Shown here piece after piece: positions 2,073 through 39,128 of a stretch of 64,000 bases of DNA. The first letter of the stretch is position 1. The number at the start of each line of letters is the position of its first letter. The DNA is from Aeriscardovia aeriphila (lineage in GTDB: Bacteria; Actinomycetota; Actinomycetes; Actinomycetales; Bifidobacteriaceae). The DNA lies in assembly GCF_002259595.1 (NCBI RefSeq), contig NZ_MWWU01000002.1, forward strand, positions 124,001 through 188,000, read 5' to 3'. The notes beneath the pieces were generated by a model, which was given only the letters and a program-made list of their open reading frames with translations, did no database searches and had not been told where the DNA came from. The position numbers were made by a program, and so were the translations under genes.

Positions 2073-3140
2073 GTGACTAACGAAGCTGAATTCGACAAGG
2101 AGCGGGTTACCGCCCAGATCGCCGAAGCTGTCCAGGCAATTGAAGACGCCCAGTCGTCGAGCGCCTTACGCCAACTGCGTGACGAGTATGTGGGTAAGAA
2201 TTCCGTTCTCGCTCGCGCTTCCCAGGCAATCGGCAAACTGCCTAATGACCAGAAGAAGGAAGCCGGACAGCTGCTTGGCCAGTTGCGTGCAGAATTTGGT
2301 CGCGCTTTCGGTGCTCGTGAGGCTGCCGTTAAGAAAGCAGAGGAAGAAGCCAAGCTCGCTGCAGAGAAGGTTGACGTTACCCTTCCTGTTGAGCGTCATC
2401 CTCTCGGTGCGCGTCATCCTTTGGCAGCGCTGACTGAAGATATTCAAGACTTCTTCGTTTCCATGGGGTGGCAGATTTCTGAAGGCCCAGAAATTGATTC
2501 GGAGTGGTACGATTTCGACGCTTTGAACTTTGGCCCTGACCATCCTGCTCGTCAAATGCAGGACACTTTCTACGTCAAGGGTGATAAGGCTCGCGACGCT
2601 GCTGGCTTTGTCGGTTCGAACATGGTTCTTCGCACCCAAACCTCTTCCGACCAGGTTCGTGGCCTCATCCAGCGTGGTGTGCCGTTGTACATGGCCTGCA
2701 CGGGCCGCGTTTTCCGTACCGACGAGCTCGACGCTACCCACACTCCTGTGTTCCACCAGTGCGAGGCTCTCGCCGTGGATAAGGGCCTGACCATGTCCGA
2801 CTTGAAGGGCACTTTGGACGCTTTGGCAGTTGCCATGTTCGGCCCGGAGGCCAAGACTCGCTTGCGTCCGTCCTACTTCCCGTTCACTGAGCCATCTGCT
2901 GAGATGGATTTGTGGTTCCCCGATAAGAAGGGCGGCCCAGGCTGGATCGAATGGGGTGGTTGCGGTATGGTCCACCCGAATGTTCTGCGTTCGGCCGGTT
3001 TGGACCCTGACGTGTACACCGGTTTCGCTTTCGGCGTGGGCATCGAGCGCGCTTTGCTGCTGCGCCACGACATTAACGATATGCACGACTTGGTTGAAGG
3101 CGATATTCGCTTCAGCAAGCAGTTCGCGATGGGAGAGTGA
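2073..3140 (+). CDS. pheS: Phenylalanyl-tRNA synthetase alpha subunit
   Basis: Catalytic alpha subunit of the (alpha-beta)2 PheRS that charges tRNA-Phe in the cytoplasm. The 355-residue product has an N-terminal coiled coil (about 1-90) followed by the class II core, with GPEIDSEWYDFDALNF (motif 1 region), TCGRVFR-like TGRVFRTDELD (motif 2) and the C-terminal GFAFGVGIERALLLRHDI (motif 3). The GTG start is preceded by AGGAAAAGGGG. The upstream 140 bp holds no recognisable T-box or Phe-rich leader peptide. It is followed after 3 bp by pheT, a standard pheST operon. Confidence 0.97.
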   Translation: MTNEAEFDKERVTAQIAEAVQAIEDAQSSSALRQLRDEYVGKNSVLARASQAIGKLPNDQKKEAGQLLGQLRAEFGRAFGAREAAVKKAEEEAKLAAEKVDVTLPVERHPLGARHPLAALTEDIQDFFVSMGWQISEGPEIDSEWYDFDALNFGPDHPARQMQDTFYVKGDKARDAAGFVGSNMVLRTQTSSDQVRGLIQRGVPLYMACTGRVFRTDELDATHTPVFHQCEALAVDKGLTMSDLKGTLDALAVAMFGPEAKTRLRPSYFPFTEPSAEMDLWFPDKKGGPGWIEWGGCGMVHPNVLRSAGLDPDVYTGFAFGVGIERALLLRHDINDMHDLVEGDIRFSKQFAMGE

Positions 3141-3143
3141 GTA

Positions 3144-5762
3144 ATGCCAATCGTTGATATTGACTGGCTCAAAGAGCATGTTGACGTTCCTGCAGACCTC
3201 ACCGTCGAGCAGCTGAGCCAAGACCTCGTTCGTATCGGTCTGGAAACCGAAACCATTCACCGCTCTTCCGTGACCGGGCCTGTGGTGGTTGGCCGCATCG
3301 TTGACTTCGTCAAGGAGCCGCAGAAGAACGGCAAGACGGTGTCCTGGTGCCAGGTCGATTGCGGTGAAGAGCACAACGTGAAGGAAGAGGACGGTACCAC
3401 TCGTCTGCGCGGCATCATTTGCGGCGCTCCGAATGTGGAGAAGGACGCCCTGGTGGTGGTCGCTCTTCCTGGTGCCGTTCTTCCTGGTGACTTCGCCATT
3501 TCTGTGCGCAAAACCTACGGCCACAAGTCGGAGGGTATGTGCTGCTCCGCCCGCGAGCTGGGCATGGGCGATGACCATCACGGCATTATCTTGCTGCGCG
3601 AAGAGGGCTTCTCTCAGGAGGAGTTGAAGAATATCAAGCCTGGCGATGATGCGCTGAGCTTGCTTCACCTCAACATTCCAACGCTTGAGATTAACATCAC
3701 GCCAGATCGCGGCTACGCCTTCAGCTACCGCGGTGTTGCGCGCGAATATCACCACTCCACCGGCGAGCCTTTCACCGACCCTATTCCTGAGCTTGCCGCT
3801 CAGGCTCCTCAGGTTGAGGCAGGACACCAGGGTGATGTTGAAGCTGCCATCGAGGATGACAACCCTATCCACGGTGTGGTGGGTTGCGACCGCTACTACC
3901 TGCGCGCAGTGCGCGGTTTCGACCCGAATGCAAAGACGCCAAACTGGATGCGTCGCCGCCTGATTCGCGCCGGTGTTCGCCCTCACACTTTGGCTGTGGA
4001 CGTCACCAACTACGTCATGCTCGACTTGGGTCAGCCTTTGCACGCTTACGACTTGGATAAGCTCGTCCCACCGATCGTGGTTCGCCGTGCTCATGAGGGC
4101 GAGAAGCTCGTCACTTTGGATGGTGAGGAGCATGTGTTGAGCGTGGAAGACCTCGTCATCACTGATTCTCCGAATGGTGAGCGTTCCTCGCGTATTCTTG
4201 GCCTTGCCGGTGTGATGGGCGGCCAGTATGGCGAAATCACTGCTGACACCAAGAATATTTTGGTGGAGTCGGCTCATTTCGATACGGTTTCCATAGCTCG
4301 TACTGCTCGTCGCCACAAGCTTCCTACCGACGCTTCGCATCGTTTCGAGCGCGGTGTGGATTATGCGATGCAGCCAGCTGCAGCTCAGGATGCTATTCAC
4401 CTTTTGACTCGCTATGGCCAGGGCGTTGCTTCTGATAATCCAACGGACCTCAACACTACGAAGGAACCGCAGCCGATCGCCTTCAAGGTGAGCGAGGTGA
4501 AGCGCCTTGCTAATCTCGATACCTCTACTGAGGATATTGCCGCCATTTTGGAGGATATCGGTTGCACGGTTGCCGGCGGTGGCAATGGCACCTTCATCGT
4601 CACTCCTCCTACATGGCGTCCAGACCTCACCATCGCTCCTGACCTGGTGGAGGAAGTAGCTCGCCTGGTTGGTTATGACAAGATTCCGACTCGTATTCCG
4701 TCGGTTCCTGTGGTGAACCCTGGTTTGACGCCATTCCAGGCTCGTCAGCGTAAGGTCGCTGCAACGCTTGCTGAAGCTGGTTTGGTGGAGACGCTCAGCT
4801 ACCCGTTCGTCGGTGAGAAGGACTTTGAGGAGTTCGCTCTCAACGCCGAGCAGGTGAAGGGTGAGTCGGTTGAGGTGCGTAACCCTCTGGCTGGAGATCG
4901 TCCGTTCATGCGTACGAACCTTCTCTATACTTTGGCTCGCACTGCTCAGCGCAATCTTCGTCGTGGCATGCGTAACGTCCAGATTTATGAGATTGGTCAC
5001 GTGTACCGTCAGGATCCTAACGCTCCTGCCATTCCTGCTCTGCCTGGTTCGGTCAAGCCAAGCGAGGACCAGCTCAAGGCTTTGGAAGCTGGCCTTCCTG
5101 CTCAGCCGTTGCAGGTTGCTGCTGTGCTGACTGGTGAGGCTGTTGCCCCCGGCTGGTGGAAGGATTCTCGCGCTATCGACTGGTCGGATGCTGTTGCTCT
5201 GGCTCGTCGTGTGGGCGAGCGTATCGGTGCTGAACTGAGCATGGCAAGCCTTGATGAGGCGACGAACTTGCCATCTGATTTCAATGCGGGCACCTGGCAT
5301 CCAGGCCGTACTGCAGTGGTGAGCTTCAACGGTGTTTACCTGGGTGTTGCCGGTGAGCTCCACCCTGAAGTGAACAAGACTTTGGGCTTGCCGGAGCACT
5401 CCGCTGCCTTCAACCTCGACTTGACGGCGCTGTTCGACACCTTGTCGCTGCAGCCACTGCAGGCCAAGCCGATTTCCACCTTCCCGCCAGTTCGTGAGGA
5501 TCTGGCCTTCATGGTGGAGGAGAAGGTGAGCGCTCAGCAGCTGATTGACGCCATTCGTCGTGGTGGTGGTGAGTCTCTGGAGTCTGTCGAGCTCTTCGAC
5601 GTGTACCGTGGCTCTGACTTGGGTGAAGGCAAGAAGTCCTTAGCCTTCTCGGTGGTGTACCGTTCTGATTCTCAGACTCTCACCGCAGCCCAGGCGAAGG
5701 AGATTCGCGCTGCTATCGTCGCTGAATGCGAGAAGGACCTCAACGCCGTTCTGCGCGTCTGA
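3144..5762 (+). CDS. pheT: Phenylalanyl-tRNA synthetase beta subunit
   Basis: The beta subunit contributes tRNA binding and editing of mischarged Tyr-tRNA-Phe. At 872 residues it is slightly longer than usual. Domains in order: N-terminal EMAP/tRNA-binding-like domain (about 40-150), B3/B4 editing domain (about 215-400), B5 domain, a class II-like core, and the C-terminal ferredoxin-fold anticodon-binding domain (about 780-872, beginning near KPISTFPPVREDLAFMV). The ATG lies 3 bp after the pheS stop, so translation is probably coupled. A strong hairpin terminator follows within 40 bp. Confidence 0.97.
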   Translation: MPIVDIDWLKEHVDVPADLTVEQLSQDLVRIGLETETIHRSSVTGPVVVGRIVDFVKEPQKNGKTVSWCQVDCGEEHNVKEEDGTTRLRGIICGAPNVEKDALVVVALPGAVLPGDFAISVRKTYGHKSEGMCCSARELGMGDDHHGIILLREEGFSQEELKNIKPGDDALSLLHLNIPTLEINITPDRGYAFSYRGVAREYHHSTGEPFTDPIPELAAQAPQVEAGHQGDVEAAIEDDNPIHGVVGCDRYYLRAVRGFDPNAKTPNWMRRRLIRAGVRPHTLAVDVTNYVMLDLGQPLHAYDLDKLVPPIVVRRAHEGEKLVTLDGEEHVLSVEDLVITDSPNGERSSRILGLAGVMGGQYGEITADTKNILVESAHFDTVSIARTARRHKLPTDASHRFERGVDYAMQPAAAQDAIHLLTRYGQGVASDNPTDLNTTKEPQPIAFKVSEVKRLANLDTSTEDIAAILEDIGCTVAGGGNGTFIVTPPTWRPDLTIAPDLVEEVARLVGYDKIPTRIPSVPVVNPGLTPFQARQRKVAATLAEAGLVETLSYPFVGEKDFEEFALNAEQVKGESVEVRNPLAGDRPFMRTNLLYTLARTAQRNLRRGMRNVQIYEIGHVYRQDPNAPAIPALPGSVKPSEDQLKALEAGLPAQPLQVAAVLTGEAVAPGWWKDSRAIDWSDAVALARRVGERIGAELSMASLDEATNLPSDFNAGTWHPGRTAVVSFNGVYLGVAGELHPEVNKTLGLPEHSAAFNLDLTALFDTLSLQPLQAKPISTFPPVREDLAFMVEEKVSAQQLIDAIRRGGGESLESVELFDVYRGSDLGEGKKSLAFSVVYRSDSQTLTAAQAKEIRAAIVAECEKDLNAVLRV

Positions 5763-5963: not shown

Positions 5964-7265
5964 ATGTCGGATAATGAGAATCTCAACCCAGTGAAGGGTG
6001 ATTCGGGAGAAACTCCTCGTAATACTGAGCTCAACAATGCTGAGCAGACGGGTGCTGAGCAGACGGGTGCTGAGCAGACGGGTGCTGAGCAGACGGGTGC
6101 TGAGCAGAGTGGCGTTCAACAGGCGGAAAATTCTGCGCCGGCTGCTACCCACGATGACGCCCCTCAGGCGGCCGTGCCTCAGAATTCTGCTGCCAGCGAG
6201 CCTCATCAGGCCGAGCACAATGCTGAGCACAATGCCGAGCAGCAGGACGAGCGCGTGGACTTGGGCCGCTTGGAAACGCAAGAGCCGTCCTATGGTCAGA
6301 TGAGCGCGCAGTATGGCCCGAATTACAATCCGTATATTTTCGGCGCTCCTGAGCCTCAACCACAGCCTCAGAACAATAATCGCCCCCAGCAGCAGAATTT
6401 CTTCGGTTTTAATGGCAACCGTCCGGATATGAACCAGAACGGCAATGGTTACGGTCCTCAAGGTTTCGGCTCGAACAATTATGGCCCAAACGCTCAGTTT
6501 GGTTACGGCCCGAACAACTATGGTCCCAACCCTTATGGTCCACAATTTGGCCCGAACCCTTACGGCCCTCAAGCTGGCCCGCAGGGCCCTCAGGGTCTAC
6601 AAGGTCCTCGTGGCCCGCAAGCGCAAGGTCCGCAAGGCCCTCAGGGTCCACAGGGCCAGCCGAACCAGCCAGGCAACCAGGATCAGCCACAGAACAGTGG
6701 TGCTCGTAACCAGCATGTTCCACAAAACGGCCCGTTCGGTTTCAACCCTTATGAGCCGCAGGATGGCTTTGGCCCACAGCCAGGCACTTTTGGCCCCGGC
6801 CAGTTCCCACCTCGCGCATACGGTCAGCCTGGCCCACAGGGTCAGCCGGGCCCACAGGGTCCTCAAGGTCCGCAAGCTGGTCCTCAAGGTCCTCAAGGTC
6901 AGCCTGGCCCCAACGGCAGGCCGCAGCCCGTCGCCTACGACCAGTTCCTGCGCCCGTTCAACCCTGATGACCCGAACCAGAACCCGGTGTATGGCCGCTG
7001 GGATATGTGGAGCATCATCGCTTTCATCCTGAGCTTCTACACCTACTTCGCATTCCTGAGCTTGCCGCTGGCCATCATGGCTGCTCGCCGTGACAAGGTT
7101 CTTCACATGAAGGGCCGCGGCTTGGCTATCGCTGCCATCGTCTTGTCGGTGATCGGCTTGATCGTCATGCTGCTCGTCACTTTCGGCGTTCCGATCCCCG
7201 GGCTGAGTTCGCTGCTCGGTGCTGTCGCTAATGGCGCACAAACAGCCAGTTTCCTAACCGTCTGA
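5964..7265 (+). CDS. DUF4190-like membrane protein with collagen-like Gly-Pro-Gln-rich cytoplasmic region
   Basis: Function unknown. The first about 335 residues are low complexity: four perfect AEQTG pentapeptides (about 26-45), an N/P/G-rich stretch with YGPNxYGP units, then many GPQ/GQP triplets that resemble collagen. The C-terminal about 85 residues hold two membrane helices around an RDKVLHMKGRGLA loop, the arrangement of small DUF4190 membrane proteins. Start chosen from AAGGGGAGCT 5 bp upstream of ATG. There is no signal peptide, so the repetitive part is probably cytoplasmic. It stands alone between two terminators. The 15-bp DNA repeat inside it could change length by slippage. Confidence 0.8.
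   Translation: MSDNENLNPVKGDSGETPRNTELNNAEQTGAEQTGAEQTGAEQTGAEQSGVQQAENSAPAATHDDAPQAAVPQNSAASEPHQAEHNAEHNAEQQDERVDLGRLETQEPSYGQMSAQYGPNYNPYIFGAPEPQPQPQNNNRPQQQNFFGFNGNRPDMNQNGNGYGPQGFGSNNYGPNAQFGYGPNNYGPNPYGPQFGPNPYGPQAGPQGPQGLQGPRGPQAQGPQGPQGPQGQPNQPGNQDQPQNSGARNQHVPQNGPFGFNPYEPQDGFGPQPGTFGPGQFPPRAYGQPGPQGQPGPQGPQGPQAGPQGPQGQPGPNGRPQPVAYDQFLRPFNPDDPNQNPVYGRWDMWSIIAFILSFYTYFAFLSLPLAIMAARRDKVLHMKGRGLAIAAIVLSVIGLIVMLLVTFGVPIPGLSSLLGAVANGAQTASFLTV
6039..6113 (+). repeat. 15-bp tandem repeat, four perfect units plus one degenerate
   Basis: Unit GCTGAGCAGACGGGT starts at 6039, 6054, 6069 and 6084; the fifth copy (6099-6113) is degraded. It encodes AEQTG in frame, so gain or loss of units would alter protein length without frameshift. 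Confidence 0.95.
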
Positions 7266-7272
7266 CAAGTTG

Positions 7273-7296
7273 GAGGCCCCTCGTGGGCCTCTTTTT
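7273..7296 (+). terminator. Rho-independent terminator
   Basis: GAGGCCC (7273-7279) pairs with GGGCCTC (7285-7291) across a 5-nt loop, then TTTTTG. It ends the DUF4190-like gene; the ribosome-binding site of the next gene starts just after. Confidence 0.9.
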
Positions 7297-7311
7297 GTAT
7301 GAGGAGCTCGC

Positions 7312-8652
7312 ATGAACACAGCAGTTTCCTACGACCTTTCACTCTCTGATGCGTGGGCAGCGGGCCTCGCATCCCTTGAGATTATCAGCGCGAACGAAGC
7401 CCTCCGCCTTCACCATGCTCTCCAGCGCATTGGCCGAGACTGGCCAGCTGATTCCTCCCCGCGCTACGACGAGCTGGCTAATCTGTTTAATCACCTCGAC
7501 GCCCAGCTGGTTTCTCTCATGCGTGAGGATGAGGACGAGCAGCTCGCGCTCGATTTTCTCGCCACTCGTTCGGCAACTGCGCGTTATCTGAGTGTGGGTC
7601 GAGCCCTGTTGCGCGCGCATGCTCAGCACATTGTTCGAGCGCTGAACGATGTGAAGCACAGTTTGTTAACGCAAGCAGGTAAGGCGTTGTCGCTCAGGAT
7701 TATCATTCCTGTTAATCTCAGCCCAACTCTTGCAGCCCAAGCGCTCGTCGGCTGGGCGTACCAGTTTGCCGACATGGCCGAGCAGCTGGTAGCTTGGCGA
7801 GCTCACGCCGACCGTTGCCCGGTGACCGTGGGGGAGGGTGCGGGCATGCTTTTCGAGCAAGACCCGAGGCCCTTGGCTCGCGCGCTTGATTTTTCAGCGG
7901 TTTCCTCGTGTGCTGCCCGAGAGTTGAGCTCGACTGCGGCAAGCCCAGAGGAGGAGCGATTTTTCGTGTTGACCGGCCAGGTTAAAGCTTTGTGCCGCGA
8001 GTTTGAGCAGCAGGTGCAGCTGTGGGAAAACGTGGGGTTCGTCAAGCGTGCGGGCAATTCGGAACAAGTCAGATCAGCACAGACCAGCCCGGCACAAGGT
8101 GAGCCTGCACAAGGTGAACCGGCACAAGGTGAACCGGCACAAGGTGAACCTACTCTTCCTCATGATGACTCTCACGCTCTCATAGTCAAACTTACCGCAC
8201 TGGCTCATATGGTTGAGCGGCTGGAGTGGGATGAGCCTGGCTGCGAGAAGGCCTGCTCGTGGAAGCTCGCTGCGCCGGATGTGGTGGCGTGGCTTGTGGT
8301 TCACCAGTATGTGCATCCCACGCTTGCCGAGCAGGTGGTGCTCAAGTTTTTGGAAGATCGCGATACCAGCTCAGCTCAAGCTGAAAGCGCTGAGGTCGCA
8401 GCCTCGCGCGCCTCAGAAGCTCCGCGCACCTCAGAGTCTCCCAGCACCTCAGACGCGCCAAGCTCAAAAGAATGCGAGCAGATGCTCCTTGCGGCTGGTG
8501 TTGCCCCAGCTGCGATGACAGGCAAGCTACCGGTGAGCGCGCTGAAAAACCTGTGGAGTGCTGCAGGAAGCGTTGAAGCACATAAGAGCTTGGGAGGAAG
8601 TGCTGCCAAGCGCGTGGACGAGCAGATCAAAGAGCTTGCGACACGCCCATGA
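7312..8652 (+). CDS. Degenerate argininosuccinate lyase/fumarase-superfamily protein, probable pseudoenzyme
   Basis: Residues run parallel to ArgH along the whole length. LATRSATARYLSVGRALLR (about 85-103) sits where ArgH has its TGRSRNDQVA region. LRIIIPVNLSPTLAAQALVG sits where ArgH has the PGYTHLQ..QP stretch, followed by counterparts of the PLGAGALAG and D-R-D-F-x-E segments. The C-terminal EAHKSLGGSAAKRVDEQI matches the ArgH tail (..SLGG/T-AP-RVxEQI). The histidine of the THLQ region and the flexible catalytic loop GSSxMPxKxNP are absent; at the loop site there is a linker with four AQGEP pentapeptides. A second low-complexity insert (about 350-385) also breaks the helical domain. It is therefore unlikely to cleave argininosuccinate. 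The frame is intact, suggesting a retained non-catalytic role. The similarity was read by eye and is an inference. Confidence 0.6.
   Translation: MNTAVSYDLSLSDAWAAGLASLEIISANEALRLHHALQRIGRDWPADSSPRYDELANLFNHLDAQLVSLMREDEDEQLALDFLATRSATARYLSVGRALLRAHAQHIVRALNDVKHSLLTQAGKALSLRIIIPVNLSPTLAAQALVGWAYQFADMAEQLVAWRAHADRCPVTVGEGAGMLFEQDPRPLARALDFSAVSSCAARELSSTAASPEEERFFVLTGQVKALCREFEQQVQLWENVGFVKRAGNSEQVRSAQTSPAQGEPAQGEPAQGEPAQGEPTLPHDDSHALIVKLTALAHMVERLEWDEPGCEKACSWKLAAPDVVAWLVVHQYVHPTLAEQVVLKFLEDRDTSSAQAESAEVAASRASEAPRTSESPSTSDAPSSKECEQMLLAAGVAPAAMTGKLPVSALKNLWSAAGSVEAHKSLGGSAAKRVDEQIKELATRP
8092..8151 (+). repeat. 15-bp tandem repeat, four units
   Basis: Near-identical units GCACAAGGTGAACCG start at 8092, 8107, 8122 and 8137 and encode AQGEP. 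Like the repeat at 6039 it has a 15-bp period and sits in a low-complexity protein region. Confidence 0.93.
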
Positions 8653-8790
8653 GCTTCGTCTGTCATATCGCGGGCGTATCGTCTTGCAACGATGAGAAAC
8701 GCAAGTGTGACGGTGAGCGCATGCGCCACCCAGGAGAGCAGCCGAGCAGCCTCGGTTGTTTTTGCATTTGCTTTTCGTGATTGCGTAGTG

Positions 8791-8821
8791 AAGCAGAGAC
8801 CGTAAGGTTTCTGCTTTTTTT
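8791..8821 (+). terminator. Rho-independent terminator
   Basis: AGCAGAGACC (8792-8801) pairs with GGTTTCTGCT (8806-8815, one G-T pair) across GTAA and is followed by a T-run, about 140 bp after the ArgH-like gene. No gene is seen between 8653 and 8925. Confidence 0.85.
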
Positions 8822-8925
8822 ATGCCGAAAAAGCTCGCTACAGCAATCACTCAGTAGTTGCACCCAACTACTGCAAACCCATACGTCGGGCAGGCCGGTG
8901 GTCACCCGATAAGGAGATGAGGTTG

Positions 8926-10251
8926 ATGAACGAAGAAAAGAAGAATACCCAGGCGAAGCTGAGCTTCGCAGATATGACCAAGCAGCAGCGTTGGGTTGTT
9001 GCTTCGACATCCTCCGGCTTCTTGCTGGAAAACATGGATATCATGTTCCTGAGCTTCTCGCTGACCATGATTATCGCGAGCTTGGGAATTTCTAAGGCAG
9101 AGGCTGGCCTGATTTCCACTATCACGAACCTCGGTATGCTTGCCGGTGGTTTGATCTTCGGCATTTTGGGTGACAAGCTCGGCCGCGTTCGCACTTTCTC
9201 CCACACCATTTGGATTTTCGCCATTGCGACCGCTCTGACCTTCTTCGCCCATAACATTTGGCTGCTCTACATTCTGCGCTTCCTCGCAGGTGTGGGTGCA
9301 GGCGGCGAGTACGGCGTCGGCATGGCAATGATCGCTGAGAACTTCACTCACCGTTACATGGGCCGTCTCACTTCTCTGGCAGCCATCGGCGGTCAGGTTG
9401 GTTCCATTCTCGCAGCTCTTCTCGCAGCATGGATTCTTCCTACTTTCGGCTGGAACGCGCTGTACCTGGTCGGTATCGTCCCCGTCATTTTGATCTGGTT
9501 CGTCCGCCGTCACGTCAAGGAATCTGATACCTTCCTTGAGGCTCAAAAGCAGGCTCAGGAAGCCACCGCCCACCACGACGCTTCTCACAAGATCTCCTTC
9601 TCTCGCCTCTTCGCCACTCCAGCTCTGGCCGCTCAGACCATCGGCCTGACCATCATGGCCATCATCCAGATCGCCGGCTACTTCGGCTTGATGAACTGGT
9701 TGCCAAGCATCGCACAGGCTCGTCTGAATCTCTCCGTCACCAAGTCCAGCTTGTGGATGATCGCCACAATCATCGGTATGTCTCTGGGCATGGTCGTCTT
9801 CGGTTGGGTTATGGACAAGTTCGGCCCTCGCTGGTCCTTCGGAATCTTCCTGCTGGGTTCTGCTTGCGTCATGTTCTCCCTGCTCTCCGTCAATAACATG
9901 GTTCAGCTGCTGCTCGCTGGCGCGCTGATCGGCTTCTTCTCCAACGGCATGTTCGGCGGCTACGGCACGGTGATCTCCCTGCTCTACCCAACAGAGATCC
10001 GCTCTACTGCTAACAACATGATCATGAATATTGGTCGCGCTGTGGGTGGTTTCTCCTCTCTGGCAATCGGCGCGATGATGGACGCTTTCAACAACCTCTG
10101 GATTGTGATGGGCTCTTTGGCTGGCATGTACGTCCTCTCCTTCCTGGTGATGGTCAGCCTTCCTGGCATCAAGCGCCTGACTGCTCTCAAGGCTCAGGCT
10201 CGCAAGGGCCAAGAGGATGCCCAGGTTGGTCTCGCAGTAGAAACTGCTTGA
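8926..10251 (+). CDS. MFS transporter co-transcribed with pyrDFE; candidate pyrimidine-precursor importer
   Basis: Twelve-helix major facilitator protein of the aromatic acid/sugar-acid type. The loop 2-3 signature GDKLGRVRTF and the helix 4-5 motif RFLAGVGAGGEYGVG are clear, followed by an FGWNALYLVG stretch and a central cytoplasmic loop. The second ATG (8926) is taken as start because AAGGAG (8911-8916) is directly adjacent to the first ATG but 9 bp from the second. Only 12 bp separate it from pyrD, so they form one operon. The position suggests the substrate is orotate, dihydroorotate or another pyrimidine precursor. That is inference from context; the fold is certain, the substrate is not. 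Confidence 0.85.
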   Translation: MNEEKKNTQAKLSFADMTKQQRWVVASTSSGFLLENMDIMFLSFSLTMIIASLGISKAEAGLISTITNLGMLAGGLIFGILGDKLGRVRTFSHTIWIFAIATALTFFAHNIWLLYILRFLAGVGAGGEYGVGMAMIAENFTHRYMGRLTSLAAIGGQVGSILAALLAAWILPTFGWNALYLVGIVPVILIWFVRRHVKESDTFLEAQKQAQEATAHHDASHKISFSRLFATPALAAQTIGLTIMAIIQIAGYFGLMNWLPSIAQARLNLSVTKSSLWMIATIIGMSLGMVVFGWVMDKFGPRWSFGIFLLGSACVMFSLLSVNNMVQLLLAGALIGFFSNGMFGGYGTVISLLYPTEIRSTANNMIMNIGRAVGGFSSLAIGAMMDAFNNLWIVMGSLAGMYVLSFLVMVSLPGIKRLTALKAQARKGQEDAQVGLAVETA

Positions 10252-10263
10252 GAGGAGGGAACG

Positions 10264-11304
10264 ATGGCTGAAACAACAGAAAATATGCTCGCGATCTCTG
10301 CTCACGCTCAGCTTTTGGCAGGGGAGGAAACGCCCCAGATTACCAGGCCAAGCTCAACCCGTCCTGACAATCTCAAGAAAGGCGGTGTTGTTTCTGACCC
10401 GCGCCTTGGCGTCGAGCTGCCGGGCTTAAAGCTCAAAAACCCTGTTATGCCAGCTTCGGGAACGTGCTGGTATGGCCAGGAAATTGCCCGCGACTACGAC
10501 CTCAACAGGCTGGGAGCCATCGTTCTCAAAACCACAACCTTGCGCCCGCGCGAGGGAAACGGCCAGCCTCGCCTGCTCAAAAGCGGCGAGGAATGGATGA
10601 ACTGCAACGGTTTACACAATGTTGGCGTCGAGCAACTCCTCGCCGACAAGCTGGTGTGGCTTGAGGAAAACTATCCCGACCTGCCGGTAATTGCGAGCGT
10701 TGCCGGCAATAGCGTCGAAGAATACGAGCAGGTGGCAACAAAACTCAACAAGTCGAGCCATCTTGCAGCCCTCGAACTCAATATTTCTTGCCCGAACGTC
10801 AAAGCTGGCGGCCAGGCCATGGGCGTTGACCCTGAGGTCGTCGAAGAGCTGACTCGCCGTTGCGTGCAGGCAAGTTCCAAGCCGGTGTACGTCAAACTCA
10901 CGCCAAACGTTACCGATATCACGACGATCGCACTGGCCGCCGAGCGTGGTGGGGCAGCGGGCTTGACCATGATTAACACGCTGACGGGTTTGCGCTTCGA
11001 CCTTGCCAGCCGCAAGCCGATTTTGTCGAATGTGACCGGCGGTGTGTCTGGCCCTGCGCTGAAGCCGATTTGCTTGAGGCTTATTCACCAGGTTCGACAG
11101 GTTTCCGATATCCCGATCATTGGCGTCGGGGGTATTACGAGCGCCGAGGATGTTCTGGAATACCTCATCGCTGGTGCTCAAGCTGTTCAGGTGGGTTCAG
11201 CATCCTTCACTGACCCGCTGGCATTGCCCAAGATTATCAGTGCGCTTCCGCTTGTCATGGATCAGTATGGCATTGATAATCTCAGCACACTAAGGGGAGA
11301 ATGA
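10264..11304 (+). CDS. pyrD: Dihydroorotate dehydrogenase, class 1B-like catalytic subunit
   Basis: FMN enzyme that oxidises dihydroorotate to orotate in pyrimidine synthesis. A TIM barrel follows an atypical about 40-residue N-terminal extension. Visible motifs: KTTTLRPREGNGQPRL, the catalytic-base segment LNISCPNVKAGG (class 1B form, where class 1A has CPNVPGKPQ), KLTPNVTDI, NTLTG and the phosphate-binding GVGGITSAEDVLEYLIAGA. Class 1B enzymes normally work with PyrK, an FAD/iron-sulphur electron-transfer subunit usually encoded next door. No pyrK is present here, so the electron acceptor is open. AGAGGAGGG precedes the ATG. The stop overlaps the pyrF start (ATGA). Confidence 0.93.
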   Translation: MAETTENMLAISAHAQLLAGEETPQITRPSSTRPDNLKKGGVVSDPRLGVELPGLKLKNPVMPASGTCWYGQEIARDYDLNRLGAIVLKTTTLRPREGNGQPRLLKSGEEWMNCNGLHNVGVEQLLADKLVWLEENYPDLPVIASVAGNSVEEYEQVATKLNKSSHLAALELNISCPNVKAGGQAMGVDPEVVEELTRRCVQASSKPVYVKLTPNVTDITTIALAAERGGAAGLTMINTLTGLRFDLASRKPILSNVTGGVSGPALKPICLRLIHQVRQVSDIPIIGVGGITSAEDVLEYLIAGAQAVQVGSASFTDPLALPKIISALPLVMDQYGIDNLSTLRGE

Positions 11305-12035
11305 TGAGAAGATACGAGCCGATTGTTGCCATCGACGTTGCCAGCGAAAAAGAAGCTCTCGCTCTCATGGACACGCTCAAGGATTCGGGCGAGGCCAACC
11401 ATGACATGCCCATCCTCAAGATCGGCATGGAGCTGTATTACGGCGTCGGCCAAGAGATGGTGAAGCAGGCTAAAGCTCGCGGCTTCCGCATTTTCCTGGA
11501 TTTGAAGCTGTACGACATTCCGAACACCGTGCGCCGAGCCATGGCTGCTATCGGACGCTTGGGTGTTGATTTCACCACGATTCATGCGGCTGGCGGCTCT
11601 GAAATGCTCAAGGCTGGTTTGGAAGGTTTGCGGCAGGGTGCGCAGGAGGCTCATGTTGAGCCTGCCCAGCTCCTCGCCATCACTCAGCTGACCAGCATTG
11701 ACGAGCAGATTTTGCACGAGCAGCAGCATGTGGATTTGTCGCTGATTGAGTCGGTGCAGAACTATGCGCGCTTGGCTGACGAGTGTGGTCTGGCTGGTGT
11801 AGTCTGCTCTGCTCAGGAGATTGCGGCCATTCGCGAGGTCACTCGTGATGACTTCTTGTGCGTGACTCCCGGTATTCGCCCTGCTCACTACCAGAAGGAT
11901 GACCAGAAGCGCATTGTTACGCCGTTCCAGGCGCATCAGCTGGGTTCGAACGCCATCGTGGTGGGCCGTCCGATCACGCAGTCTGCCGACCCGGTTGCCG
12001 CTTACCAGACCATTCGCCGCGAGTTCATCGGCTGA
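11301..12035 (+). CDS. pyrF: Orotidine-5'-phosphate decarboxylase, bacterial type 1
   Basis: Decarboxylates OMP to UMP. The 244-residue product is the short type with the catalytic FLDLKLYDIPNTV (Lys-Asp-x-Lys-x-x-Asp array), an N-terminal VAIDVAS strand and the C-terminal phosphate-binding region GSNAIVVGRPITQS. It overlaps pyrD by 4 bp. The gene order pyrD-pyrF-pyrE and this short PyrF resemble Firmicutes clusters, which may mean transfer; a tree would decide. Confidence 0.95.
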   Translation: MMRRYEPIVAIDVASEKEALALMDTLKDSGEANHDMPILKIGMELYYGVGQEMVKQAKARGFRIFLDLKLYDIPNTVRRAMAAIGRLGVDFTTIHAAGGSEMLKAGLEGLRQGAQEAHVEPAQLLAITQLTSIDEQILHEQQHVDLSLIESVQNYARLADECGLAGVVCSAQEIAAIREVTRDDFLCVTPGIRPAHYQKDDQKRIVTPFQAHQLGSNAIVVGRPITQSADPVAAYQTIRREFIG

Positions 12036-12137
12036 ACGCTGGCTCGCCGATCCCAGGTCGCCCGCTGGCCACTGGCCCGCCCATCCGCGTGGTGGCCTGC
12101 CGGCCCGCCCGCACATATTCGTACTCAAGAAGGAAAA

Positions 12138-12908
12138 ATGACGAACACAAACTCCGTTAACGCTGAGAACTCTGCAAGTGCTCAGAACGCCGCAAGCGTT
12201 GAAAACACTGCTAACGCACAAGCTGCCGAGGCTAACGCACAGGCCGCCGAGGCAAACGCTCAGGCCCACCAGATCGCCGCTGATCTGCTGTCCATCCAGG
12301 CTGTGACCTTGCGCCCGAACGATCCCTTCGTCTGGGCTTCGGGCCTGCATGCGCCTATTTACACTGATAATCGTTTGACTATCTCTTACCCGCAGGTGCG
12401 CACTCACATTGCTCAGGCTTTAGCGGCTCTCATCACTCGCCAGTTTGGTGAGGTGGATGTCATTGCTGGCACGGCAACGGCAGGCATTCCTCACGCTGCT
12501 TGGCTGGCAGCAGAGCTCAACAAGCCGATGATCTACGTGCGTTCTAAGCCGAAGGATCACGGCCAGGGCCGCCAGATTGAGGGCACGATCACTCCTGGCG
12601 CTCGTACGGTGGTTATTGATGACCTGATCTCAACGGGCGGCTCAGTTCTCAAGGCTGTCAAGGCTGCCGAAGGCGAGGGTGCGAAGGTGCTTGGTGTCGC
12701 CTCGATTTTCAACTATGAGCTGCCGGAAGCTCGCGAAAACTTTGCTGCTGCTGGCATGCCCTACTTCTCTGCAACAAGCTATTCGACGCTGATTTCTGAG
12801 GCCATTGCTCAAGGTTTCGTTGACGAAGCTGATCGTGAGGTTCTCACTGCCTGGTCCAACGACCCTGAGGGCTGGTCTTTGGCTCATGGTGGCGAGCCTT
12901 TGGCCTGA
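12138..12908 (+). CDS. pyrE: Orotate phosphoribosyltransferase with Ala/Asn-rich N-terminal extension
   Basis: Joins orotate and PRPP to make OMP. The conserved domain starts near residue 48 (IAADLLSIQAVTLRPNDPF). Substrate motifs: IAGTATAGIPHAAWLA, the flexible-loop YVRSKPKDHGQGRQIEG and the PRPP-binding VVIDDLISTGGS. The first about 45 residues are low complexity with an almost perfect AEANAQA repeat, absent from most PyrE. AAGGAAAA lies before the ATG. A 102-bp GC-rich gap separates it from pyrF, but both are likely in the same operon, which ends at the hairpin after this gene. PRPP is made by the prs product at 27.1 kb. Confidence 0.94.
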   Translation: MTNTNSVNAENSASAQNAASVENTANAQAAEANAQAAEANAQAHQIAADLLSIQAVTLRPNDPFVWASGLHAPIYTDNRLTISYPQVRTHIAQALAALITRQFGEVDVIAGTATAGIPHAAWLAAELNKPMIYVRSKPKDHGQGRQIEGTITPGARTVVIDDLISTGGSVLKAVKAAEGEGAKVLGVASIFNYELPEARENFAAAGMPYFSATSYSTLISEAIAQGFVDEADREVLTAWSNDPEGWSLAHGGEPLA

Positions 12909-12937
12909 ATTTCTCCAGATTATCAGTCCGCTTCATC

Positions 12938-12973
12938 AGCCGCAGCCGAGCATCCGCTTCGCTGCGGCTTTTT
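12938..12973 (+). terminator. Rho-independent terminator of the pyr operon
   Basis: AGCCGCAGC (12938-12946) pairs with GCTGCGGCT (12961-12969), followed by a T-run. A GATTATCA motif copy lies just upstream at 12918. Confidence 0.85.
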
Positions 12974-13036
12974 CATCTGCCCTGGCAATTTGGCAGAAGC
13001 AGTATTCAGAGCTAGCGTTGCTCTCAGGAGGTAGCG

Positions 13037-13849
13037 ATGGAGTATGTGATTCTGCTCGTCATATTGGGCTTGTTGGTGTGGTTTATTGTGCTCCTCGTTC
13101 AAGAAATCAAGCGTGAGCAAGCAAAGATGCCAGAAGAAAAAGCCTATGATGCCGCCGTGCGAGAGTATGAACGCCGCGTACACGAAGCAGAGAAGCTGTA
13201 TAACAAAGCGCTCAAAGCTCACGATAGGCGAGTGGCAGCAGCCCGATGGCAGCATGAAAAAGCGCAGAAAATGGGCGATGGCTACGTGGACTCCATCATC
13301 GGCAAAGAAGGAAAAATCGAAGTCCACAAACTCTACATCACCACTCCACAAGGCCGATACCCGCTTGACCCTTCCGTGCGCGCAGAAGTAGACACGGCAG
13401 GTGCCATCGCTGTGAAATCACGCACAACACTGACCCGTGTCGCCACCGGAGCTGTACTCTTCGGTCCCATAGGCGCACTCATCGGTGCCAGCGCCAAGAA
13501 AAACACGGTGATCGATACCCGCCAGCTCTTCCTCGTGATTGAAAGCGACGCCTTCGCTGCAGCACTCACTTTGAACCCCGACCAAGCCAGCCAAGCACAC
13601 GCCTTCGCAACCAAACTTCTGCAAACAGCCAAACAAGTGCCCGTTCTCAAGGCCGATCAGAAGAGAATGCTCGAGGAAACTCAAAAGAACATAGAAGAGG
13701 AACAAGCAGACCGACGCGAGATTAACACCGCCAGCCACAACCTCACTCTCATTCAAAACGACACGCAAACTGTGGATGCTGCCAAACGAGCAGCGGACGC
13801 TGCCATAGCTCGCAAAACTGGTGTGGTTCCACAGAAGCACAACCGTTAG
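13037..13849 (+). CDS. Membrane-anchored coiled-coil protein with glycine-zipper segment, function unknown
   Basis: One N-terminal transmembrane helix (about 3-22) is followed by a charged coiled coil (about 25-85, rich in E/K/R/A). A compact domain then contains YITTPQGRYPLDPSV and a Gly-rich hydrophobic patch GAVLFGPIGALIGAS before KKNTVIDTRQLFLVIES, and the C-terminal 70 residues are again helical. The middle recalls bacterial PH-like domains with a glycine-zipper insert, but this is only an impression. AGGAGGTAGCG precedes the ATG. It converges on metI with a 4-bp overlap of the coding ends and no terminator between them. Confidence 0.75.
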   Translation: MEYVILLVILGLLVWFIVLLVQEIKREQAKMPEEKAYDAAVREYERRVHEAEKLYNKALKAHDRRVAAARWQHEKAQKMGDGYVDSIIGKEGKIEVHKLYITTPQGRYPLDPSVRAEVDTAGAIAVKSRTTLTRVATGAVLFGPIGALIGASAKKNTVIDTRQLFLVIESDAFAAALTLNPDQASQAHAFATKLLQTAKQVPVLKADQKRMLEETQKNIEEEQADRREINTASHNLTLIQNDTQTVDAAKRAADAAIARKTGVVPQKHNR

Positions 13850-14550
13850 CGAACGCGCGTCTTATCCAAACGGCGAGTGAGCACATCGCCCACCAACTGA
13901 ACGATAAGAACCAACAGAAGAGTGAGCACGGTAGCCATCACCGTCACATCCGTGTTGAAACGGTCATAGCCATACGAAATAGCCATCGTACCCAAACCGC
14001 CAGCGCCAACAGCACCAGCCATAGCTGTTAATCCTATGAGGTTAATGACGGTGACTGTCGACACACGAAGCAACTCGGCTCGCGCTTCCTTCAAGTACAC
14101 CGTGGTGACAATATCCATCGTGGACGCGCCCACCGACTGCGCCGCCTCCACAATGCCCGGATTCACCGTCTCCAAAGCAACCTGAACCTGGCGGGCGAAG
14201 AAGGGGAAAACACCCAAAGAAAGCGGTACCAAAGCAGCCTTCGCACCAATCTGAGTGCCAATCAAAGCCTTCGTAAACGGCGCCACAAAAGCGAGCAAAA
14301 TAATGAACGGCACCGCGCGGAACACATCCACCGTCTTGCTAATCACAATGTTCCACTTGCGCGACTCATGAATGCCGCCCTTACCGGTCAACACCATGCC
14401 AATACCAGCCAACAGACCAGCAATACCGCCAAAGAAAGCCGACCAGAAGGTCATGAACAACGTCTGAACAATAGCGGTACCCCAACCGGTTTCGCCATAC
14501 CAGCCCAAAGCGAGAACATTAGGAATCCACTGTTCCAGGAAATCTTTCAT
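13846..14550 (-). CDS. metI: D/L-methionine ABC transporter permease, MetI-like
   Basis: Five-helix permease of the MetI family (234 residues) that forms the channel of the methionine importer. Visible: TVDVFRAVPFIILLAF and the EAA loop EAAQSVGASTMDIVTTVYLKEA that docks on the ATPase. The ATG overlaps the metN stop by 4 bp. Last gene of the metQ-metN-metI operon. Confidence 0.92.
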   Translation of the reverse strand: MKDFLEQWIPNVLALGWYGETGWGTAIVQTLFMTFWSAFFGGIAGLLAGIGMVLTGKGGIHESRKWNIVISKTVDVFRAVPFIILLAFVAPFTKALIGTQIGAKAALVPLSLGVFPFFARQVQVALETVNPGIVEAAQSVGASTMDIVTTVYLKEARAELLRVSTVTVINLIGLTAMAGAVGAGGLGTMAISYGYDRFNTDVTVMATVLTLLLVLIVQLVGDVLTRRLDKTRVR

Positions 14551-15644
14551 GCCACACGCTCCTCAGAAGAATCGTCAGCTCCCTCATCATCAGAACTGAC
14601 CAGCGACGAGTCCAACTGCTGCGCATCAATATCCATCGACGCCAAATAATCCGTCGCCTGCTTGAGCTGCTGCGCATCACCCGTCACCAAAATGATCAGA
14701 GTGCCAATCAACTCACCATTCAACACATCAACAGAGCCGTACAGAATACTCGACTCAACGCCAAAACGACGGTACAACTCGAGGGTTGCCGACTGGTCGA
14801 CATTATCCACACCATACGTCAGCTGGAAAAGCCTCTGGTTCGGCTTCAAACCACCCAAATGGTAAGCGGCCAGAGAGCGCTCCGTCTCACTCGAACCACC
14901 CACGAACTCGCGTGTCATCGCCTGGCGAGGGTGCAACACCACATCGCGCAAAGCGCCACGCTCCACCAGCTCACCGTGCTCCATAACAATAATGCGATCG
15001 CAAATGCGCTTCACCGCATCCATCTCGTGAGTGATGAGAACAACCGTCACGCCCAAACGACGGTTCAAATCCTTGAGCAAATCAAGAATCTGAATAGTCG
15101 TTTGCGGGTCCAGCGCCGAAGTGGACTCATCCGAGAGCAACACCTCAGGGTTATTTGCCAAAGCGCGCGCAATAGCAACCCTCTGCTTTTGGCCACCAGA
15201 CAGCTGAGCAGGGTAGGCATTCGCATACTCTTCCAAGTGAACGAGCTCCAAAAGGTGGCGAACGCGCTGCTCGATGTCACTTTCACTAAGCTCACTGTGG
15301 CGCAAAGCAAAAGCGATATTGTCGGCAATGCTCGACTGGTTGAGCAGGTTAAACCCCTGGAAAATCATGCCCACGCGGCGGCGCAAAGCACGCAGTTCGC
15401 GAGGCTTAATCACCGTGCCATCGTCAAAAATCGTCTTTTCCAAAACGCGCACACGCCCAGCACTCGGGGTCTGCAGCAAATTGAGCGTACGAACCAGCGT
15501 TGACTTTCCGGCTCCGGAAAAGCCAATCACGCCCAGAATTTCACCCTTATGCAGCTTCAAACTGGCGTCATGGACGGCGGTCGTATCACCAAAGCTGACG
15601 CGCACGTGGTCGAGTTCAATGACCACATCACTTTCGTTGTTCAT
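14547..15644 (-). CDS. metN: Methionine ABC transporter ATP-binding protein with C-terminal NIL domain
   Basis: ATPase of the MetNIQ importer. Walker A GFSGAGKSTL, Q-loop FQGFNLLNQ, signature [16 protein letters not shown], Walker B VLLSDESTSALD and the H-loop VTVVLITHEMDAV are all present. The last about 100 residues form the NIL/C2 regulatory domain that in E. coli binds methionine and shuts transport (trans-inhibition). The start is set at 15644 (MNNESDVVIELDHV): the longer frame would add a non-homologous segment running into metQ. Walker B has Ser-Asp-Glu as in other MetN proteins. Confidence 0.94.
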   Translation of the reverse strand: MNNESDVVIELDHVRVSFGDTTAVHDASLKLHKGEILGVIGFSGAGKSTLVRTLNLLQTPSAGRVRVLEKTIFDDGTVIKPRELRALRRRVGMIFQGFNLLNQSSIADNIAFALRHSELSESDIEQRVRHLLELVHLEEYANAYPAQLSGGQKQRVAIARALANNPEVLLSDESTSALDPQTTIQILDLLKDLNRRLGVTVVLITHEMDAVKRICDRIIVMEHGELVERGALRDVVLHPRQAMTREFVGGSSETERSLAAYHLGGLKPNQRLFQLTYGVDNVDQSATLELYRRFGVESSILYGSVDVLNGELIGTLIILVTGDAQQLKQATDYLASMDIDAQQLDSSLVSSDDEGADDSSEERVA

Positions 15645-15667
15645 TCGCTCCCGCTTTCCTAGCTCAA

Positions 15668-16594
15668 CTATTCGGCGTGCTGATCTTCCAAACGCTTCAA
15701 ATACTCGCCGAATGCTGGCAATGTTCTCCCGCCGTATGCGCGGCGAATCACAGTGGCAATCTCGTCGCTTTGGTAGCATTCCACCACTTTGGCGAACAGA
15801 TCGTTGTGGGCGTCCTTCTTACGCGCGGCAATAATGTTGAGCCACTGGTGAGAGCTCGCATCCACAGGCTCCGTCGCGATGGCCAAGCTTAACGGAGTGT
15901 TCGACGAAGCGGCAAAGTCGTCGTTAATAACCGAGCCTGCCACTGACTCGAGTACGCGGGGAGTTTGGTCTGGCGGCACCTCTTTAATAGTCAATTTCTT
16001 AGGATTATCAGTAATCGACGCCACCGTAGCCAAACCATTTTTTGGCAGCTTCACGGAAATCAGGCCAGCGTGCTGCAAGGTGAGCAAAGCTCGAGATTCA
16101 TTCGTTGCGTCGTTGGGAACGGCGATAGTCGAACCGCGAGGAATATCCTGCACCGAAGAATACTGGCGAGAGTAGAGGCGGATCGGGGCAATAACCGTCG
16201 TGCCAATCCCCACGAGGTCAGCATGGTTCGCCTTATTCCAAGCGTTCAAGAAGGCGTAATGCTGGTAGGCGTTGAGGTCAATATCGCCATTTTGCAAGGC
16301 TTGGTTGGGTTGGTTGTAGTCGGTGAAGTTCTTAATGCTCACCGTAATGCCATAACGGTTTCTGGCAATCTTGGAAACGGCGGCCCACACCTGCTGAGTA
16401 GCCGAGCTCAAGCCTGCCACGCCAACAGTGACGTGCTTGCCAGAAGCGGAGGAAGAAGCAGAAGAGTCCTGGTTGGGATCCATCAAAACGATGTCACCGG
16501 AGTGCGGGCTAAAACTCAGCCAGGCGAGTGCTGCGATCAGAAGGGCAGCAATACCAGAAATAATGAGCTTTTTCTGGCGACGAAAGTGTCTCAT
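15668..16594 (-). CDS. metQ: MetQ/NlpA-family methionine-binding protein, N-terminally anchored without a lipobox
   Basis: Extracytoplasmic substrate-binding component of the methionine importer. Family features: VTVGVAGLSSATQQVW, NFTDYNQPNQALQNGDIDLNAYQHYAFLN, IPRGSTIAVPNDATNESRALLTLQ and VINDDFA. Unlike usual MetQ lipoproteins there is no cysteine after the hydrophobic segment (about residues 8-30, ..GIAALLIAALAWLSF). The protein is therefore probably held by an uncleaved signal anchor or secreted. ATG at 16594 is preferred because GGGGAAG lies 5 bp before it. First gene of the operon; no S-box riboswitch is seen upstream. Confidence 0.88.
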   Translation of the reverse strand: MRHFRRQKKLIISGIAALLIAALAWLSFSPHSGDIVLMDPNQDSSASSSASGKHVTVGVAGLSSATQQVWAAVSKIARNRYGITVSIKNFTDYNQPNQALQNGDIDLNAYQHYAFLNAWNKANHADLVGIGTTVIAPIRLYSRQYSSVQDIPRGSTIAVPNDATNESRALLTLQHAGLISVKLPKNGLATVASITDNPKKLTIKEVPPDQTPRVLESVAGSVINDDFAASSNTPLSLAIATEPVDASSHQWLNIIAARKKDAHNDLFAKVVECYQSDEIATVIRRAYGGRTLPAFGEYLKRLEDQHAE

Positions 16595-16597
16595 CAT

Positions 16598-16979
16598 ACT
16601 TCCCCAACTAGTGAAACGACTATGGTGTTCAATTCTGCTCGAATACAAACGAAGAACTAGTGTACGGGGTTCTGACCCTTTTGCCTAAAACGAAATACAC
16701 GAGTTATCAGAAAAGCTGATAACGGGCGCGGGGAGAGGTTGGGCTGGGTGAAGGCGCGGGCTTCGAGGTCGCGTTCGGTGAGGTTGGGCTCTCTTGGCAG
16801 GGGCGCGCGCAAGATTATCACGCAGTGATAATCTCAAAAAAATGGGGAGCGCTGTGGCAAAGAATTGGCTATTTTCTGCGGATTTGCTGAGCTGAAAAAG
16901 TGGCGTGTGCTGTCGGGCTGTACTGAGAGAATGAGAACTCGTAAACTCATACGCCGAGAGGCCGAAGGGCAAAAGGAAA
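16598..16979. repeat. Divergent metQ-tyrS intergenic region with two inverted-repeat motif pairs
   Basis: 382 bp without a gene. Two hairpin-capable pairs: GTTATCAG (16703-16710) with CTGATAAC (16716-16723), and GATTATCAC (16813-16821) with GTGATAATC (16825-16833). The second pair consists of two opposed exact copies of the window-wide motif followed by an A-run. Promoters for both divergent genes must lie here but none is convincing by eye. Confidence 0.75.
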
Positions 16980-18305
16980 ATGGCAAAGGTTACCAATTAC
17001 AAGGAAGCAGGGTTCTCTTCCGTACTAGAAGAACTGGAATGGCGCGGTTTGATCGCGCAGTCTACTGATCGCGAGCGTTTGAGCAAGGCTCTGTCCGAAG
17101 GCCCGATCACCTTCTATTGCGGTTTCGACCCTACCGCTCCTTCCATTCACATTGGTAATCTTGTGTCCCTGCTCGTGATGCGTCACTTGCAGGAAGCTGG
17201 TCACCATCCTATTGTTCTGGTCGGCGGCGCAACAGGTTTGATCGGAGACCCACGCCAATCCGGCGAGCGCACCTTGAACCCTGCTGAGACGGTTGCTCAG
17301 TGGACGGAAAAGTTGCGCAATCAGATCTCCCGTTTCTTGCGTTCTGATGGCGAGAATGCTGCCCAGTACGTGTCCAATTACGACTGGACGAGCAAGTACT
17401 CCGCCATTGACTTCCTGCGCGATGTGGGTAAGAACTTCCGCGTGGGAACCATGCTCAACAAGGATATTATTGCCAGGCGTTTGAACTCGGAGGACGGCAT
17501 TTCCTTCGCCGAGTTCAGCTACCAGGTTCTTCAGGGAAACGACTTCCTCCACCTCTACGAGACGAAGAATGCCACCCTGCAAACTGGCGGTAACGACCAG
17601 TGGGGTAACCTCGTTTCTGGCCTGGACCTCATCCACCACGTTCACGGCGTCGACGTCAACGTCATGACCAGCCCGATTATCACTGATTCTCAGGGTAAGA
17701 AGTTTGGCAAGTCAGAAGGCAACGCCATGTGGCTGGACGGCTCCATGTTGAGCCCATACAAGTTCTACCAGTTCTGGTACAACCAGCCAGATTCTGAGGC
17801 AATCAAGCTTCTCAAGGTGTTCACCTTCCTGCCTAAGGAGCGTATCGAGCAGCTCGCTCAAGCTCAGCAGCAGGACCCTGGTGCACGTGAAGCACAGAAA
17901 GTTCTCGCCTATGAAGTCACGAGCTTCATTCACGGTGAAGAGGCAGCACAGCAGGCTATTGAAGCCAGCCAGGCGCTTTTTGGCCGCGGTGAGCTTGCCA
18001 AGCTGGATGAGCAGACTCTCGAAGCTGCTCTCGAAGGCTTGAAGAATGTTGACAATGCTGATGGTACGAAGGCATGGGCCTCGGCTGAAGAGGGCGAAGA
18101 AGTGGTGCGTGCTGCAGTTGATGGAGGTTTGTTCCCATCGATCTCGCAGGCGATGAAGGCCATTCGTCAGGGTGGCTTGTATGTAAATAACAACCGTGTT
18201 GAGGACCCGAACCAGGTTCTCACTCAGTCTGATTTTTTGGCCGGACGTTTTGTTTTGCTGCGTCGCGGTAAGAAGTCCCTTGCAGCTCTGGAGGCTAACA
18301 AGTGA
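16980..18305 (+). CDS. tyrS: Tyrosyl-tRNA synthetase
   Basis: Class I synthetase charging tRNA-Tyr. The 441-residue bacterial form has the HIGH box variant SIHIGN near residue 53, the tyrosine/ATP pocket [20 protein letters not shown], a KMSKS variant KFGKSEGN near residue 242, and a C-terminal S4 RNA-binding domain (about 375-441). AAAAGG precedes the ATG by 5 bp. The stop overlaps the GTG start of the next gene by 4 bp, so the two are translationally coupled. Confidence 0.97.
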
Positions 18306-38354: not shown

Positions 38355-39128
38355 GTGCTGGTCAGAAAGATTTATGGAGGAGCGAGTGATAATCGCACGT
38401 GTATCTGCCCTGTAGGTGAGGTGACCTCACCTACAGCATCACTTGAGGCTCAGGTAGAGCACTTCAAAGCATTGGGTGATATCACCCGACTGCAGCTAGC
38501 CTTAATAGTCAAACAGTCCGCCCCGTCCCCGGTGTGCGCATGCAACTTCCCTGAGGCCTTCGGCATGAGCCAGTTGACGATTTCCCACCATCTAGGCAAG
38601 CTGGTCAAAGCCGGAGTTCTCGAAAGGCAAAAGCGAGGGAAATGTGCGTACTTCACGCTCAACCCAGATTTTGATCAAAATCTTCTCGCAAACGTGACCC
38701 TAGGAGTCGCCATGAACGTTAATGACACAGCCACAGGAACCACGATCTTGTTCGCCTGCCGGCAAAACGCCGGACGTTCCCAGATTGCTGCAGCGTTAGC
38801 CAAGCAACTTGCACCAAAAGGCGTAACGATCCTGTCGGCAGGATCCGAGCCTGCTGATGCGGTTCATCCCGTCGTCGTTGAGGCCCTCGCCGAGCTCGGC
38901 CTCCAACCCGATTCTCAACCCAAGCCACTCGACCCTGCACAGGTGAAAACGTCTGACTGGGTCGTCACCATGGGATGCGGCGAAGCCTGCCCCTTCTTCC
39001 CGGGCGTCCACTATCAAGACTGGAAGATCGACGACCCCAGCGACCGTTCACTGGAAGAAGTCCGGAGCATCATCGACCAAATCAGAATACGTGTCCAAGA
39101 ACTGCTTGACACAGTCTCCCAAGGGTAA
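38355..39128 (+). CDS. ArsR repressor fused to thioredoxin-type arsenate reductase ArsC
   Basis: Residues about 25-115 form an ArsR winged helix (FKALGDITRLQLALIV, recognition helix SQLTISHHLGKLVKAGVL) with the Cys pair SPVCACNF at the site where As(III) is sensed. Residues about 125-257 are a low-molecular-weight-phosphatase-fold ArsC: P-loop CRQNAGRSQ, then MGCGEACPFFPG with the resolving cysteines as in actinobacterial reductases, and WKIDDPSD. One protein would thus sense arsenite and reduce arsenate. The start is uncertain: GTG 38355 keeps a TCICP stretch like other ArsR N-termini, while GTG 38421 lies inside a palindrome. No arsenite exporter lies next to it; the CDF gene is nearby. Confidence 0.88.
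   Translation: MLVRKIYGGASDNRTCICPVGEVTSPTASLEAQVEHFKALGDITRLQLALIVKQSAPSPVCACNFPEAFGMSQLTISHHLGKLVKAGVLERQKRGKCAYFTLNPDFDQNLLANVTLGVAMNVNDTATGTTILFACRQNAGRSQIAAALAKQLAPKGVTILSAGSEPADAVHPVVVEALAELGLQPDSQPKPLDPAQVKTSDWVVTMGCGEACPFFPGVHYQDWKIDDPSDRSLEEVRSIIDQIRIRVQELLDTVSQG
38410..38436. promoter_or_regulatory. Perfect 27-bp palindrome at the start of arsR-arsC, candidate operator
   Basis: CTGTAGGTGAGGT (38410-38422), one central base, then its exact complement ACCTCACCTACAG (38424-38436). ArsR-family repressors bind dyads at their own promoters. It lies within the longest reading frame, so either translation starts at 38421 or the operator overlaps coding sequence. Confidence 0.55.

Follow-up and report, generated by a model that had tools for sequence, protein, structure and literature searches.

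The window considered here is a stretch of 64,000 nucleotides from Aeriscardovia aeriphila (G000:C5:124001-188000), drawn from an assembly of 1.63 Mb that is 84% complete. It carries a forward-strand frame with an ATG start (7312-8652) that is open over 446 codons, as the original prediction had stated. This frame, annotated from the ORF itself, TIGR00838, hhalign and dN/dS as the CDS of an ArgH-derived protein predicted to lack catalysis, lies downstream of pheS-pheT (pheT, 3144-5762, +). It begins 46 bp past the stop of a gene for a protein rich in Pro, Gln and Gly whose C-terminus carries a DUF4190 domain (5964-7265, +), identified by synteny and by a Pfam match under the curated cut-off (E=2.6e-7). 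A Shine-Dalgarno-like GAGGAG (7301-7306, +) precedes the start codon and is the same in the congener G002. A consensus scan places terminator-like hairpins between the DUF4190 gene and the ORF (7272-7292, +) and 3' of the ORF (8790-8817, +), both conserved in G002. The upstream region folds at -20.7 kcal/mol, with a z-score of only -1.04. Transcription of the ORF may depend on read-through of this hairpin, and expression may be lowered. Further downstream, an MFS-pyrD-pyrF-pyrE-metNIQ block (8917-16648) separates the ORF from tyrS (16980-18305, +).

The NCBIfam argH model TIGR00838 matches residues 5-199 of the 446-residue protein (E=5.6e-10), with a score of 38.8 bits that stays below the curated cut-off of 279.5 bits. 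A Pfam scan of the protein gave no ASL match and nothing above threshold, and a PDB search with the single sequence gave no relevant match, since the protein is too diverged for single-sequence methods. Profiles resolved the homology. Comparison of the group formed by this protein and its relatives with true ArgH by hhalign gives a probability of 99.7% (E=1.5e-26, 400 columns), and a profile of three sequences, the window protein and relatives, finds ArgH among PDB structures with E-values down to 2e-19. Moreover, 49 of 147 columns that are near-invariant in true ArgH are kept by the window protein. Sequence comparison thus makes homology to ArgH statistically firm and identifies the protein as a highly diverged ArgH. 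The claim that it follows ArgH from start to end holds for the conserved C-terminal motif (residues 419-438, GSVEAHKSLGGSAAKRVDEQ, 8566-8625, +; GSVxxRxGxGGTAxxRVxEQ in ArgH), but not for the very start, where alignments with true ArgH show no counterpart of its first ~21 residues (LWGGRF...).

The same alignments bear out the absence of the catalytic His region and of the GSSxMPxKxNP loop, both noticed from the sequence at the outset. Residues 84-91 read ATRSATAR (7561-7584, +) where ArgH has GRSRNDQ, the first conserved catalytic region. The catalytic His region is lost at residues 129-140 (RIIIPVNLSPTL, 7696-7731, +; ArgH counterpart VMPGRTHMQHAQPVLL), with ...PVNLSPTLA standing for GRTHMQHAQPV. 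The GSSIMPQKKNP loop and the QEDKE segment after it are deleted or replaced by low-complexity sequence, and the loop was looked for in sister proteins without being found at another position. Judging from these alignments, the protein has lost all catalytic regions and should be unable to act as an argininosuccinate lyase. A further substitution gives GEGAGMLFE at residues 174-182 (7831-7857, +) where true ArgH has GALAGNTLG, a signature common to the sister-genus proteins.

A low-complexity linker occupies the place of the catalytic SS-loop (residues 242-286, 8035-8169, +). Alignments and omega mark it as fast evolving, omega being about 0.57 for residues 241-285 between the window genome G000 and G002. 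Within it, TRF detects a 15-bp tandem repeat of 4.1 copies encoding AQGEP (8089-8150, +). This array is absent from the G002 orthologue, where pairwise alignment of the 90% identical protein shows other low-complexity sequence at the same place. Because the linker evolves fast and G002 has no AQGEP, these repeats are a species-specific loop filling and not a defining feature; the array described earlier as filling the catalytic loop is real but restricted to one species. A second low-complexity linker, rich in Ser/Ala/Glu, covers about residues 351-385 (8362-8466, +; alignment and TRF, array at 8405-8453). The upstream DUF4190-type gene has a 15-bp array of its own (AEQTG, 4.7 copies at 6038-6108) and its protein several Gly-Pro-Gln repeats, so that two adjacent genes carry independent 15-bp arrays.

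Two AlphaFold2 models were obtained. With an alignment of the window protein and its G002 orthologue only, the model is poor (pLDDT 38). With N-terminal ArgH halves added, taken from viral contigs as full-length sequences misaligned the C-terminal half, mean pLDDT rises to 60; residues 1-240 are all helical with pLDDT mostly 70-94, and the C-terminal half is of low confidence. The best Foldseek matches of this low-confidence model in the PDB are ASL/delta-crystallin structures (probability 1.00, E about 4e-6, TM about 0.45). As ArgH was in the alignment, this match is not independent proof; the model supports an N-terminal half of ASL type.

Gene order indicates where the ORF comes from. In G013 and G030, which keep the arginine pathway, the order is pheS-pheT-DUF4190-(arg genes)-argH-tyrS-TPR-HAD-tlyA-nadK-recN, and in intact genomes the DUF4190 gene likewise stands before the arg cluster. 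By synteny, pheT and tyrS are the left and right anchors of this ancestral order. In the window and in genomes of the sister genus (g10), the ArgH relic immediately follows DUF4190, at the place that argH held ancestrally. In G022 and in two Aeriscardovia congeners, G001 and G003, the site is clean and DUF4190 adjoins tyrS. G003 has pyrE-pyrF-pyrD on the opposite side of pheS.

The arginine genes have a matching distribution. Searches found argG, argJ and argR in no genome of Aeriscardovia (g1) or g10, nor a true argH in any of them; on the latter point the window assembly, itself 84% complete, is backed by three congeners and three g10 genomes. In the next genus out (g16), intact ArgH is present in 3 of 3 genomes (E about 1e-165), and argR in the one genome searched for it. 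Among 189 family genomes searched, the full-length relic occurs only in G000, G002 and the g10 genome G025, whose open copy encodes 422 residues. The g10 genome G012 has a copy shortened in frame to 283 residues, and in its close relative G036 (L048:7200-8530) the start codon is lost and the frame is shifted. G001 and G003 lack the gene. With full-length copies in only 3 of the 7 genomes of the two genera, the relic is dispensable in some species.

Selection was estimated from one close pair, G000 and G002, and one partly broken pair, G012 and G036. In the close pair, dN/dS is 0.198 (Fisher p 6.6e-18), with 74.2 synonymous changes in 330 sites and 50.8 nonsynonymous changes in 996. By region, it is 0.07 for residues 1-200 and 0.05 for residues 351-446. 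Every indel between the two copies is a multiple of three. In a neutral simulation with an equal number of substitutions, the nonsynonymous fraction is 0.71+-0.04 (0.41 observed) and stop-free runs make up only 1.2%. In the partly broken pair, omega is 0.22, against 0.08 for pheT, and the break in G036 looks recent. Thus, in the Aeriscardovia lineage the relic is under strong purifying selection at the protein level. Free change at synonymous sites led us to reject a DNA- or RNA-level cause of the conservation. It should be noted that dS between G000 and G002 is uneven along the locus (spoU 0.02, pheT 0.06, pheS 0.29, MFS 0.36; region noted, 2073-5762), which suggests recombination between Aeriscardovia species.

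Taken together, these observations lead us to propose the following history. The common ancestor of Aeriscardovia and g10 would have lost its arginine-making genes while the core of the last one, argH, stayed. A single deletion would have taken the rest of the arginine cluster together with the first ~21 argH codons, leaving the relic at its own site. Catalysis would have been lost, and purifying selection would then have kept what remained. The product would be helical and of ASL type, its two low-complexity linkers being flexible; the fold is supported for the N-terminal half only. Most likely, it would work by binding a ligand or some other protein, using the conserved helical domains of its N-terminal part, the GEGAGxxFE turn and the C-terminal segment GSVE...GGxxxKRVxEQ. 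To this whole account, an argH core left by one deletion, selected, non-catalytic and acting by binding, we give a probability of about 0.7, and a lower one to any particular partner. It is very likely that the relic has another job than arginine synthesis.

Of the two outcomes offered by the original prediction, retention for a non-catalytic role gains support from purifying selection and from a history common to the sister genus. The other, decay that had not yet produced stops, can be rejected for this lineage, given a dN/dS of 0.20 and in-frame indels, even though the gene is lost, shortened or broken in relatives. More generally, it could be argued that the relic is a pseudogene still stop-free by chance, as its pathway partners are gone, low-complexity linkers are present and the gene is degraded or missing in four genomes of the two genera. 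Nevertheless, dN/dS values of 0.07-0.20 with free synonymous change and only in-frame indels, together with novel residues common to both genera, make this highly improbable; simulated neutral drift to 25-50% identity gave at least 8 stops in every run. Of the marks of a pseudogene, a disrupted frame or a dN/dS near 1, only the former is seen, and in G036 alone; G000, G002 and G025 have open frames. Another question is whether inactivation occurred once. One deletion on the stem of the two genera, followed by retention and later losses, would be the simplest account. An outgroup-rooted pheT tree, made without the long-branch rows that had distorted a first version, joins the two genera in a clade (100/96) with g16 outside as the next branch. 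The N-terminal truncation point is identical in all four relics, and the same loop segment is lost. G000 and G025 share 18 residues that none of the true ArgH sequences examined has, where permutation would give 6.6 (p=5e-5). The replacement of GALAGxTLG by GEGAGxxFE is part of this picture (GEGAGTSFE in G025, GDGVGRSFVE in G036). Independent inactivation in Aeriscardovia and g10, with convergent residues, would fit the unequal distances between relic and DUF4190 gene (46 bp, 14 bp and about 132 bp), and identity between the two genera is only 25% overall, so that alignment-driven coincidences are possible. An ArgH tree including the relics is uninformative owing to extreme branch lengths and cannot decide. 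We nevertheless regard two inactivations as unlikely, in view of the identical truncation, the excess of common residues and the sister relationship of two genera in neither of which argG, argJ or argR was found.

What the retained protein does can be approached in several ways. A role as regulatory partner of a true ArgH, also suggested at first, is unlikely, no true argH having been found in any genome of either genus. The old fold could have gained a new catalytic activity through other residues: the N-terminal half is strongly constrained, and the novel, conserved GEGAGxxFE occupies a turn whose sequence true ArgH strongly conserves. However, superfamily members that have been characterised rely on the serine of the SS-loop (PMC13411527), whereas the relic has lost that loop along with the catalytic His region and the QEDKE segment, and there is no candidate substrate and no pathway neighbour; we hold such an activity to be distinctly improbable. 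The relic could also work together with the DUF4190 membrane-type protein encoded next to it, for instance as a soluble adaptor that the latter recruits. This is the sole adjacency kept in both genera, the downstream neighbours having changed, and in G025 the two genes are 14 bp apart with no terminator-like site found between them. On the other hand, the deletion by itself brings the two genes side by side, G001, G003 and G022 have DUF4190 without the relic, and in the window the terminator-like hairpin parts the two genes. The membrane-type protein is therefore a candidate partner only, and a dedicated partnership seems rather doubtful. Within the preferred reading, a retained binding protein, the relics may tentatively be viewed as a new family of helical binding proteins that arose a single time, when the truncated last gene of the deleted biosynthetic cluster was exapted for a cellular role unrelated to arginine. 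GEGAGxxFE and GSVE...GGxxxKRVxEQ might then, with similar reserve, be its signature.

Compared with ArgH (TIGR00838; PDB 6iem, 2e9f, 1tj7), the relic is homologous over most of its length, keeps the ancestral genomic position, has a predicted helical N-terminal half and retains the C-terminal GSV..GG...RV.EQ motif. It differs from ArgH by an identity of about 20-25%, by the absence of the first ~21 residues, of any catalytic motif and of the SS-loop with its following segment, and by two low-complexity linkers. Delta-crystallin (PDB 1i0a, 1hy1, 1u15) is an ASL recruited as an avian lens protein (PMC4701392, PMC10211241). Like it, the relic would be an ASL-family protein retained for a non-enzymatic purpose; delta-crystallins, however, are close full-length homologues of ASL, whereas the relic is far diverged with the loop deleted. 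As in pseudoenzymes generally (reviewed in PMC10211241), the catalytic motifs of the family are gone and the protein is yet conserved. Unlike in typical cases, no catalytic counterpart that the relic could regulate was found in the cell, and the relic would stem from truncation after pathway loss, not from duplication. With these differences, it is a real and retained ArgH derivative, by its sequence non-catalytic, and most probably a pseudoenzyme.

Our literature searches found nothing on the relic. It offers a traceable case of the fate of a metabolic enzyme once its pathway is deleted, and a putative example of enzyme exaptation. The sequence of events would be a 5' truncation that was survived, loss of catalysis, selection across two genera and then piecemeal loss. 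The genomes form a natural series, from intact argH in g16 through retained (G000, G002, G025), shortened (G012) and broken (G036) copies to clean absence (G001, G003). Automatic annotation would label the ORF argH or pseudogene, and either label would be misleading.

Two other observations were made in passing. The relic was found in no viral contig. One viral contig, IMGVR_UViG_3300017708_002539 (L135:614-3158), has a gene for an ArgG-like protein and, overlapping it, one for a divergent ArgH-like protein in which GSSIMPQK is retained; these are possibly phage-borne arginine genes. Elsewhere in the window, an ORF at 38355-39128 reads by eye as a fusion of an ArsR regulator with a domain resembling low-molecular-weight arsenate reductase; a cation-efflux-like ORF comes after it, where GC is higher (39-41 kb).
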